From Cyanobacteriota bacterium (GTDB lineage Bacteria > Cyanobacteriota > Cyanobacteriia > CACIAM-69d), in the NCBI GenBank assembly GCA_022402445.1, contig JAKRSF010000003.1:124001-188000 (forward strand): a DNA stretch of 64,000 nt, read 5' to 3'. Positions within the stretch are counted from its first letter, which is position 1. Each line of letters begins with the position of its first letter. The notes under the pieces were generated by a model. That model searched no databases. It saw nothing but the letters and a program-made list of their open reading frames with translations, and was not told the DNA's origin. The translations under genes and the position numbers were made by a program. Shown here in pieces: positions 57,679-61,109 of the stretch.

Positions 57679-57871
57679 GGGGGCGAGGGGTAGGGGCTTT
57701 GCCCCGATCGCGGGGCCTTGGCTGGGGCGCTGGGGGGGATGGGGTTTGACTGGGGGTTTGACTGGGCATTGTATCGGGCGGACGGGGCGATCGCGGCGAC
57801 GATGGTACCATATGCCTGATTTTTGAATCCTGCGTTTGATTTTCCCCTCCACGTCCTTTCCGGGTATACCC

Positions 57872-59227
57872 ATGCTCGAACGCCTGCGATTGATATTAGC
57901 CATTGCCCTGGCGCGATCGGTGGCGATGGCGGTGCGGCTGTCGGGGCGTGGTGCGGCGAGTGTGCTGCCGGGGAGCGTCGCCCGACGGGTGCAGCCCCGC
58001 GCCCTGGGTTTGCTGGCGGGCCAACTGCGCCAGGGGGTGGTCCTGGTGGCGGGCACCAATGGCAAAACCACCACCTCGCTGCTCCTGCGGGAAATGCTGG
58101 AGGGGGCGGGCCTGCGGACGATCCACAATGCCACGGGGGCGAATCTAGAAAATGGCCTGACGGCGGCCCTGCTGGAGGCGGCCACCTGGACGGGGGAACT
58201 GCGGCAGGATGTGGCGATTCTGGAGGTGGATGAAAATATCCTGCCCCGGGTGCTGCCCCAAATCCGGCCGAGGGCGGTGCTGGCCCTGAATCTTTTTCGC
58301 GATCAGTTGGATCGCTATGGGGAGGTCGATACGATCGCGCGGCGCTGGTCCGAGGCGATCGCGCCCTTGACGGGGACGGCGGTGGTGCTAAATGGGGATG
58401 ATCCGACCCTATCTCACTTTGGGCAAGATCTGCTGGAGCGGTGGGGCGGTGATCTGTCGCGGGTGCGCTATTTCGGCTTGACGGAACCGGAGCATTACCT
58501 CAAGGAAATCCCCCACGCGGTGGATTCAATTTACTGTCCCCGCTGCGGCCATTCCCTGCGATATCAGGGGGTTTATTTGTCCCATCTTGGGGATTTTGAC
58601 TGTCCGGGCTGCGGTTTCAAAAAGTCTGAACCGTCCCAATTGAGCCGCCATTGGCCGCAGATTTTGGTGGGTCTTTATAACAAGTACAACACGTTGGCGG
58701 CGGTGGAAACGGCGACCCTTTTTGGGGTGGAAGAAGGGATTCAGCGGGGAGCGATCGCGACGTTTAAGGCGGCTTTTGGGCGATCGGAAGAGTTGGTGGT
58801 GGAGGGGGTGCCGGTGCGGATTTTGCTGTCAAAAAATCCGGTGGGCACCAATGAAACCCTGCGAACGGTGGTGGATCTCACGCGCGATCGCCCGGTGCCG
58901 CCGACGGTGTTGATGGTGCTGAATGATCGCGCGCCCGATGGTAAGGATGTGTCTTGGATTTGGGATACGGATACGGAGCCGTTGGTGAAGGCCAATCCGA
59001 CGCTGGTGGTCAGTGGCGATCGCGCCTATGATATGGCCCTGCGCCTCACCTATAGCCAGGGGGAGCATCCGGACCTGACGCCGCCGCTGCTGGTGGAAAC
59101 GGATCTTAAACTGGCGATTGATCGCGCGATCGCGGCCACCCCAGCCGGTGAAACCCTTTATATTTTGCCCACCTACTCCGCCATGCTGGAGGTGCGCGAA
59201 ATCCTCACGGGCCGCGCCATTCGCTAG
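57872..59227 (+). CDS. murT: MurT-like lipid II isoglutaminyl synthase subunit (Mur ligase family)
   Basis: The protein is 451 residues from the ATG at 57872. The Mur ligase P-loop is GTNGKTTTSLLLREMLEG; the middle domain contains NLFRDQLDRYGEVD. A MurT-specific insertion has a zinc-ribbon pattern (YCPRCGHSLRY and FDCPGCGFKKSE) and the C-terminus is DUF1727 (MLEVREILTG). In Staphylococcus and Streptococcus MurT works with the glutaminase GatD to amidate lipid II. No gatD lies within this window next to it; the usual partner would have to be beyond or elsewhere. Confidence 0.92.
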   Translation: MLERLRLILAIALARSVAMAVRLSGRGAASVLPGSVARRVQPRALGLLAGQLRQGVVLVAGTNGKTTTSLLLREMLEGAGLRTIHNATGANLENGLTAALLEAATWTGELRQDVAILEVDENILPRVLPQIRPRAVLALNLFRDQLDRYGEVDTIARRWSEAIAPLTGTAVVLNGDDPTLSHFGQDLLERWGGDLSRVRYFGLTEPEHYLKEIPHAVDSIYCPRCGHSLRYQGVYLSHLGDFDCPGCGFKKSEPSQLSRHWPQILVGLYNKYNTLAAVETATLFGVEEGIQRGAIATFKAAFGRSEELVVEGVPVRILLSKNPVGTNETLRTVVDLTRDRPVPPTVLMVLNDRAPDGKDVSWIWDTDTEPLVKANPTLVVSGDRAYDMALRLTYSQGEHPDLTPPLLVETDLKLAIDRAIAATPAGETLYILPTYSAMLEVREILTGRAIR

Positions 59228-59336: not shown

Positions 59337-60098
59337 GTGAACGAGCAATCTGTCTTAAGCCCCGCAATCCAAGCTGAGATTGACCGGGTTGCCCAATCCC
59401 ACGGCTATGATTCTGCAATTCTGAGCGATTTGGTGGCCTTCGCGATCGCCCAGACGGCTCCCAGCAAACCCGCCAAATCCACCAAGGCTACCAAGGCCAA
59501 GAAGCCGAAAGGCCCAAGCCTCGCGGAACTGAAGAAGCTAGTCTTTGCCCGATTTGGCGTCGCCAACACTGCCGCCCTCAAAAAATCGCCTCAATTCCAG
59601 CAAGTCAGCCAAGGAAAAAAATTAGATCTGGCCCGCAAGCCCGCCTGGGAATTTCTCAAGGACTGTGAGCTACTGCCGTCACCTCCTGAGCCTCTTTCTC
59701 TCAAGGAGCTGAAGGACGAAATTTACGAAAAATTTTCCGTCAAGACAACTAAAGCCCTCAAGGCTTCACCCGCCTTCCAAATGGCAATGGACGGGATGGA
59801 CACTGTGAACCTAGCCAAGCGCGATGGCTGGGAAATGCTCTACCGCAGGTTCATCGGAGTTTTGCCTGAAGAAGAGAATCAAACTGGCCCGGATTGCATC
59901 AACGGCGTCAATATTTTCAACTACTTCCGCCCTTGGCAGGTATTTGGCCTAGATTCTAAAACCGCTGAGGATAAGGATGTGAAGGCAGCCTACTACGAAC
60001 TCAGCAAAATCTACCATCCCGATAATGCGGAAACTGGCGACAGTCGCATTTTTCAGCGTCTCAATCAGATGTATCGCTCCCTGGTGTCGGAGGCTTAG
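59337..60098 (+). CDS. J-domain protein with tandem N-terminal modules
   Basis: The 253-residue protein starts at a GTG (59337). Two similar modules of about 55 residues follow: SLAELKKLVFARFGVANTAA (about 60-110) and SLKELKDEIYEKFSVKTTKA (about 120-170), each with KSPQFQ/KASPAFQ and L-K/N-LARK/AKRDGWE. A basic Lys/Thr/Ala linker precedes them. The C-terminus (about 195-253) is a J-domain: WQVFGLDSKTAEDKDVKAAY, then the HPD motif (227-229, YHPDN). J-domains recruit Hsp70. It lies 3 bases before the HNH nuclease gene, so the two are one unit. HIP1 is sparse and codon use differs a little from its neighbours. Function unknown. Confidence 0.8.
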   Translation: MNEQSVLSPAIQAEIDRVAQSHGYDSAILSDLVAFAIAQTAPSKPAKSTKATKAKKPKGPSLAELKKLVFARFGVANTAALKKSPQFQQVSQGKKLDLARKPAWEFLKDCELLPSPPEPLSLKELKDEIYEKFSVKTTKALKASPAFQMAMDGMDTVNLAKRDGWEMLYRRFIGVLPEEENQTGPDCINGVNIFNYFRPWQVFGLDSKTAEDKDVKAAYYELSKIYHPDNAETGDSRIFQRLNQMYRSLVSEA

Positions 60099-60101
60099 AT
60101 C

Positions 60102-61109
60102 ATGGCCCGAAACCCCAAAGACTTTTCCATTGGCGAACAACAGTTAGCGGAATGTCTGAAAATTTCCATCACGCGCCTAGATGAAATTGTCGATTTCTTT
60201 GACTCTGATCCCAATGACGAATGGGATATCAAGGAAGGGACACATTACATCTTTCTGAACAAGAGCCAGAAGGAGCGCATCTTTTCTGAATTGGGGGCCT
60301 ACGCGATCGCGAAGTATCTAGACGCGACTCAAGCCCAAGGCATCTTTGACAAGGTTCTAGAATTTTTCACTCACCATAAACAAAAACTAAGGCAATCTTT
60401 TATCCGCCGAAAGATCGCCGAGAGTTGTGCGCCCATTGTCCTATACAATCACCGTTCCTATCTCAGCAAGAAGAGTACAGTCTCAATTCTTTGCACCAGC
60501 TATGCCAAGCTGAATTCAGTATTTGAGGAGATGAAACGCTCCGAGACGCCACTGATTATCGATGAAGATTTTGTAGACCTTGAAGGAACTCGTCACTACT
60601 CATTTTCTGGTTTTTATAAAATATCTAGCCATCTGGGCGACACTTTGACGAAGAAGGATCGCCAAGAGTGGTGTCGAGATGCGGTTTTGGTGAGCAAGAA
60701 AGAGTTTAAGCGCCTTGAGGACTCAATTCACAGCTTCAAGAAACGGGTTGATAGCGCCAAGAGTCGCGCCAAGAGCCGTGACAAGCAAACCTGTCAGATC
60801 ACAGGACGAAAGCCCAACAAAGAGGACAAATTTGATCTGGCGGCCCATCACGTTTTTTCCCAGGCAGAATATCCCCATCTGGCAGACAATGTTGAAAACA
60901 TTCTGACTTTGGACGCGGCGATTCACAAAAAATTTCACCAGTGGTTAGGCGGTAGCGGCAAGCCCTGCACCATTGATGATTTGATTGATTTTGTAGAAAC
61001 CGTCTATCCCCATGAAGAGCGAGCCATCAGTCGTCTTTTCGCCATCAAGAAAAAGCTCGGTCCTCAGCAGCCGAGTGAGCCTGATTTTCAAGTTTATCCA
61101 TCTGCCTAG
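60102..61109 (+). CDS. HNH endonuclease-like protein
   Basis: The 335-residue protein ends in an HNH nuclease module (about 225-290). Cys231 is in TCQITGRKPN, the double His249/His250 is in DLAAHHVFSQ, Asn is in NVENILTLD and the last His is in IHKKFHQWL. The N-terminal about 215 residues are helical, with the motif ELGAYAIAKYLDATQAQGIF, and a central region (YSFSGFYKISSHLG) I do not recognise. The gene starts 3 bases after the J-domain gene. A nuclease acting with a chaperone co-factor would be unusual; see findings. Confidence 0.85.
   Translation: MARNPKDFSIGEQQLAECLKISITRLDEIVDFFDSDPNDEWDIKEGTHYIFLNKSQKERIFSELGAYAIAKYLDATQAQGIFDKVLEFFTHHKQKLRQSFIRRKIAESCAPIVLYNHRSYLSKKSTVSILCTSYAKLNSVFEEMKRSETPLIIDEDFVDLEGTRHYSFSGFYKISSHLGDTLTKKDRQEWCRDAVLVSKKEFKRLEDSIHSFKKRVDSAKSRAKSRDKQTCQITGRKPNKEDKFDLAAHHVFSQAEYPHLADNVENILTLDAAIHKKFHQWLGGSGKPCTIDDLIDFVETVYPHEERAISRLFAIKKKLGPQQPSEPDFQVYPSA

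Follow-up and report, generated by a model that had tools for sequence, protein, structure and literature searches.

Does a gene for a J-domain protein lying directly upstream of a gene for an HNH nuclease belong to a functional unit, and if so, what might that unit do? The question was raised by two genes in a 64,000-nucleotide stretch of a cyanobacterial genome (the whole stretch analysed here, referred to as the window), which a first-pass annotation had singled out as a candidate undescribed two-gene system. The features of this cassette, in window coordinates and with the evidence for each in brackets, are as follows.

59337..60098, + strand: gene 1, J-domain protein of 253 aa, GTG start (open reading frame; Pfam DnaJ; relatives 5′ of intact HNH genes; AlphaFold)
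59517..59657, + strand: extra copy of the middle domain, residues 61–107, only in this genome (21/47 identical to the second copy)
59697..59840, + strand: canonical middle domain, residues 121–168, conserved across the family (family alignments)
59922..60095, + strand: C-terminal J-domain, residues 196–253, with HPD at 60015–60023 (Pfam; structural matches; HPD in 45/45 relatives)
60099..60101, + strand: intergenic gap of 3 bp; the genes are adjacent or overlapping in relatives (open reading frame coordinates; relatives' loci)
60102..61109, + strand: gene 2, tandem-winged-helix HNH protein of 335 aa, ATG start, putative DNA nuclease (open reading frame; HNH_2; AlphaFold)
60114..60341, + strand: first MerR-like winged helix, residues 5–80 (structural matches; allele swap in Microcystis relatives)
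60435..60653, + strand: second winged helix, residues 112–184, an internal duplicate of the first (profile–profile comparison, E 2e-6)
60654..60779, + strand: long helix, residues 185–226, leading from the second winged helix to the nuclease domain (predicted structure)
60744..61076, + strand: HNH nuclease domain, residues 215–325 (C231, H249, H250, N266, H275, H279, C289; structural matches)

The two reading frames, three bases apart on the + strand, were found exactly where the first-pass annotation had placed them. Its remark that they use few HIP1 sites is borne out by the count (2 sites, where stretches of equal size average 5.9), but the signal is weak, with 7.6% of stretches having two or fewer. 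Low G+C content is the stronger anomaly: the cassette has 48.7% in the window, against 61.2 ± 4.7%, and is among the nine lowest of 249 stretches. Judged by sequence motifs, the flanks are metabolic, as had been said, with a Mur-ligase-like gene 5′ and a dihydrofolate-reductase-like gene 3′. The gene that follows the Mur-ligase-like gene (window positions 57836–59227) is the cassette in the window and, by eye, a glutamine-amidotransferase-like gene in two other genomes (G001 and G003). Gene 2 is present in a single copy in the source genome. Comparison of both proteins with the PADLOC models yielded weak matches only (REase_II, E 4e-4; Csx1, 0.04) and no system match, while the NCBIfam models gave no match to the gene 2 protein.

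The J-domain of gene 1, reported with its HPD motif at residues 227–229, is secure: the Pfam DnaJ family (PF00226) matches residues 207–250 at 32.8 bits, above the cut-off of 27.8, and none of the 45 relatives departs from the HPD, an argument that Hsp70, or a partner that reads the HPD, is important to the protein. AlphaFold modelled the protein with a pLDDT of 89 and a short J-domain. This domain dominates the list of structural matches, which include the J-domain bound to DnaK (5nro_B, Z-score 8.2) and that of CbpA bound to CbpM (3ucs_C, Z-score 7.3). The two internal repeats that had been described are real (21/47 identical; alignment score 95, with shuffled sequences reaching 45 at most) but specific to this genome rather than a trait of the family, as the middle domain is single in 14 relatives and duplicated in the window protein alone. 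We rejected the identification of gene 1 as a general DnaJ/CbpA co-chaperone, given the C-terminal position of its J-domain and a DnaJ_bact score of 20.6 bits against a cut-off of 377.2.

For the gene 2 protein, the C-terminal HNH nuclease domain was upheld. The HNH_2 match (PF13391, residues 231–280) is marginal, at 21.0 bits against a cut-off of 21, but the fold matches and the key residues, the catalytic histidines and asparagine among them, are fixed: C231, H249, H250, N266, H279 and C289 are invariant in 41/41 relatives and H275 is found in 40/41. A confident AlphaFold model (pLDDT 91, pTM 0.75) shows two similar winged-helix units, each followed by a long helix, and then the HNH domain; profile–profile comparison identified the two units as duplicates (E 2e-6). 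Structural matches for the HNH domain include EcoKMcrA (Z-score 6.4), the CBASS effector Cap5 (6.1), VcaM4I (6.0) and TagI (5.5), and gene 2 would on this basis be expected to cut DNA. The first winged helix matches RacA (7.0), HiNmlR (6.7) and CbpM (5.1), scores that are middling and tied within groups. Foldseek searches of the PDB with both protein models returned nothing below E 0.001. At the position of the supposed DNA-contact tyrosine of MerR proteins, which is Ile27 in CbpM (PMC4063869), 34 of 41 family members have isoleucine, while a wing arginine is kept in 39 of 41, both aligned by eye. With isoleucine in place of the tyrosine and the wing arginine retained, the module could bind DNA, a J-domain, or one of these with each unit.

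To ask how general the pairing is, we used a main sample of 386 evenly chosen cyanobacterial genomes. Both genes are present in 28 of these (approx. 7%), which hold 30 loci with a near-full-length HNH gene; at each of the 30, the J gene lies directly 5′ on the same strand, usually at a spacing of 2 bp or overlapping. Among 59 genomes of near relatives, 14 have both genes and 45 have neither. The J gene occurs in exactly the same 28 genomes as the HNH gene plus three more, two of which (G076 and G166) carry an intact J gene with no adjoining HNH gene and the third (G198) a J fragment from which the J-domain is missing. An intact winged-helix HNH gene without a J gene was found in none of the 386 genomes, compared with the two cases of an intact J gene alone. 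The HNH remnants without J in another two genomes (G256 and G272) are decayed, and intact J genes beside broken HNH genes at three loci (L039, L040 and L041) all come from MAGs, where assembly error is possible. The J–HNH pairing is obligate. That J survives alone and intact HNH never does is the pattern expected from a toxic nuclease under restraint, although the same asymmetry is also expected if HNH is useless without J. The role of sensor, adaptor or chaperone suggested for the J protein in the first-pass annotation fits an obligate pairing.

The known hosts, among the matches listed, are Microcystis, Sphaerospermopsis, Oscillatoria, Spirulina, Geitlerinema, Cyanobium and other cyanobacteria, and a pattern-based scan of contigs found at least 14 long matches to the J protein, all of them cyanobacterial among the matches listed. 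None of the five other members of the host's own family that were sampled has the cassette. One of the orphan J genes (G076, L313:7775-8323) has an upstream region closely resembling that of a Sphaerospermopsis locus (L031), with the HNH gene missing. The J gene that has lost its J-domain (G198, L315:4693-8389) lies directly 5′ of dnaK-like and DnaJ-like genes on the same strand.

A second, highly divergent pair was found in one genome of the sample (G129, L214:8360-10085), where a gene for a 222-aa protein is followed, after 10 bp, by one for a 348-aa HNH protein. Towards the C-terminus of the smaller protein lies a J-like domain (LSFLYHPDHGG; DnaJ E 0.001, below the cut-off). In a two-sequence comparison, the HNH domain of the larger one matches the family of gene 2 (E 3e-22), and the N-terminus of this protein is unrelated; its nearest relatives in the 386 genomes are the J-paired HNH proteins. 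On the strength of this one case, the link between J and HNH appears to extend beyond the MerR-like type.

Recurrent adjacency with variable neighbours had been named as the observation that would support a two-gene system, and this is what we found: J lies 5′ of HNH in 30/30 cases and, across 29 loci, no other gene is common to most. Several lines of evidence show that the pair has been transferred horizontally as one unit. Over the 28 genomes, patristic distances of J and HNH correlate with each other (r 0.74, or 0.71 given RecA) far more closely than with those of RecA (0.32 and 0.35, respectively), and, of 27 splits, 16 are common to the J and HNH trees, compared with 8 and 10, respectively, that these have in common with the RecA tree. 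Two genomes of one genus with close RecA sequences (G043 and G056) nevertheless carry cassettes from two different clades. At 43 of 47 loci, the A+T content of the cassette exceeds that of the flanks, with a mean difference of 7.7 points. In Microcystis, where 9 of 12 genomes have the cassette, a homologous block of approximately 1.76 kb sits at three unrelated loci and consists of about 120–135 bp 5′ of J, both genes and no more than 27 bp 3′. Both genes are under purifying selection, with dN/dS of 0.06–0.48. The suggestion that the pair could be a housekeeping unit is contradicted by this patchy, horizontally moved distribution.

We found no exact insertion footprint or target duplication in Microcystis or in the genus of G009, because the flanks of cassette-free relatives are rearranged. 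The sampled plasmids held no relative and the sampled phages only weak matches to the HNH domain; viral contigs yielded no full-length relative, their J matches being limited to the J-domain region or slightly more. In Microcystis NIES-4325, the cassette adjoins a repeat of about 140 bp (L209:8770-8920), possibly MITE-like, that is present in about 10–40 copies in many Microcystis genomes. Two loci (L017 and L030) share one conserved neighbourhood and have the cassette in two different gaps, suggestive of repeated insertion or of movement within the region. In another genome (G176, L319:6075-11746), the cassette has a C5-methyltransferase-like gene on one side and, on the other, a near-duplicate of that gene split in two, in a restriction–modification-like neighbourhood. 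Palindromes near the Microcystis promoter region (CCACTTGACAAAGTGG) were considered as a shared operator and discarded, as they are not conserved across the family.

The Microcystis cassettes also differ among themselves. Nine HNH sequences (L206–L210, L032 and L264–L266) fall into two allele classes, split four to five among the 12 Microcystis genomes, with one allele per genome and the class independent of the locus. Over codons 1–84, the classes differ with a dN of about 0.2 and a dS of 0.55–0.67, compared with a dS of 0.04–0.16 elsewhere. Divergence starts at the HNH start codon, rising from 1–4% in the last part of the J gene to 26–27% over the initial 90 bases of HNH. These comparisons show that the Microcystis alleles are recombined first modules on a near-constant protein. 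In another pair of genomes (G125 and G140), the whole HNH gene has diverged, by 10–41% against approximately 6% in the flank just 3′. The swap suggests that it is through the first winged helix that the protein encounters a varying partner, for instance DNA, a modification or a phage factor, and we infer that this winged helix is a specificity module. The exchange of target-recognition domains is established in restriction systems. The Microcystis swap resembles that exchange; the domains themselves have been described (PMC12707154).

What, then, is the cassette for? It is a real, compact and mobile two-gene system, with no description found in the literature, and most likely a conflict module of a restriction-like or toxin–antitoxin-like kind with a built-in co-chaperone. 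The single explanation we prefer, at a probability of roughly 0.45, is a horizontally transferred genome-conflict cassette in which the J partner controls a restriction-like HNH nuclease. In gene 2, selection of a target or signal would fall to the two MerR-like winged helices and cutting to the HNH domain at the C-terminus. Gene 1 would be a dedicated J partner that holds or licenses the nuclease and links it to Hsp70/DnaK, its J-domain perhaps docking on a MerR-like module of the nuclease as CbpA does on CbpM, with the same face that it offers to DnaK. Infection or foreign DNA might then perturb the DnaK pool, or the target might be bound, whereupon J would be exchanged and the nuclease would attack DNA. 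The docking part of this model borrows from CbpA–CbpM and the sensing part from bNACHT25.

A defence role is plausible, although the expectation that the cassette would sit in defence islands failed: PADLOC, run on 129 neighbours (20 families) and on 129 controls from the same genomes (26 families), showed no enrichment. Experimentally characterized defence systems are, to our knowledge, few in the cyanobacteria that bear the cassette. A bolder version of the preferred reading, which we put forward tentatively, is that of a new immune system whose own J protein is both sensor and safety catch, reading an Hsp70 cycle disturbed by phage and releasing a winged-helix HNH nuclease that carries a specificity module swapped among strains. 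A 2025 study has proposed the guarding of host chaperones for further, undescribed anti-phage systems (PMC12169576). With a cassette-encoded J protein fixed to the nuclease gene, the idea of chaperone guarding becomes testable with two genes and an HPD mutant.

The rival that survives best is toxin–antitoxin addiction, with gene 2 as a DNase toxin and gene 1 as a J antitoxin that keeps the toxin folded but inactive, in a selfish unit for which defence would be optional. Two small, translationally coupled genes with J first, a J gene that is found alone when intact HNH is not, and horizontal spread with presence/absence polymorphism are all what such a unit would be expected to show. Against this, the HPD, kept in 45/45 relatives, would be needless in a pure inhibitor, and the swapping of a target-like module is not required by addiction alone. 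We also count against it that we know of no J-domain antitoxins. On balance we regard addiction as improbable, if still the nearest competitor. Less probable again is a host stress-response or DNA-repair unit that processes damaged DNA or regulates transcription under heat or light stress. Here the attraction is that heat-shock regulation combines J-domain with MerR-like folds (PMC4063869), but a cassette that is found in 28/386 genomes, is absent from five other sampled family members and has been transferred horizontally is hard to reconcile with such a role. A selfish homing-type element, in which HNH would cut cassette-free alleles and the pair would copy itself in, is the least probable of all: it would account for an HNH nuclease in a compact mobile unit with presence/absence polymorphism, but the insertion sites are unrelated and share no neighbours (three loci within Microcystis alone), no intron or intein was seen, the cassette-free relatives that were compared show rearranged flanks and no cut site, and the J partner is left unexplained.

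The preferred reading, a nuclease controlled by its J partner, can be set beside several known systems. No named system with this pair was found among the families, the PADLOC models or the literature, in agreement with the first-pass annotation. The phage antirepressors of the Bro-N/KilA-N type show a weak structural resemblance (best viral match E 9e-4, low TM-scores) and have no HNH–J pairing. Closest in gene order is CbpA–CbpM of E. coli, in which a J-domain gene likewise precedes a MerR-like one, adjacent or overlapping, and the first winged helix of the cassette has the MerR/CbpM fold. CbpM, itself MerR-like, competes with DnaK for the J-domain of CbpA by occupying the same face, and J-domain and MerR-like folds co-occur in heat-shock regulation, as in CbpA/CbpM and HspR (PMC4063869). 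The cassette differs in having two copies of the MerR-like unit, fused to HNH, and a J-domain that is C-terminal. Comparison with a single CbpM sequence gave no significant similarity (hhalign probability 5%), and MerR-like folds are common, so that CbpM (Z-score 5.1) is one among many tied matches, with RacA at 7.0.

Type IV and other modification-dependent nucleases (EcoKMcrA, TagI, VcaM4I and the winged-helix types) share with gene 2 an N-terminal module and the C-terminal HNH fold, and the combination of a winged helix with HNH is a recognized design among modification-dependent restriction enzymes (PMC12707154). With a candidate recognition module in its N-terminal part and a C-terminal HNH domain, the predicted gene 2 protein has the type IV architecture. 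As in type IV restriction, the cassette has no conserved methyltransferase partner across the 29 loci; unlike there, its HNH protein is always accompanied by J. SRA and EVE domains gave no Pfam match in the gene 2 protein (E ≤ 10), nor were they among the 25 commonest families of the 41 members.

Chaperone-controlled toxin–antitoxin (TAC) systems have in common with the cassette a chaperone-type protein as fixed partner in a conflict module, but theirs is SecB-like and accompanies a separate toxin and antitoxin, whereas here a J-domain protein is paired directly with the nuclease. The DNA-degrading defence of bNACHT25 depends on a J-domain protein, DnaJ, which is needed for phage sensing (PMC12169576). 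The J-domain protein is what the cassette shares with that system; rather than the general host DnaJ, it is encoded in the cassette itself, and there is no NACHT protein. If the preferred reading is right, the cassette would join the J-domain/MerR-like pairs of heat-shock regulation with the winged-helix HNH restriction enzymes.
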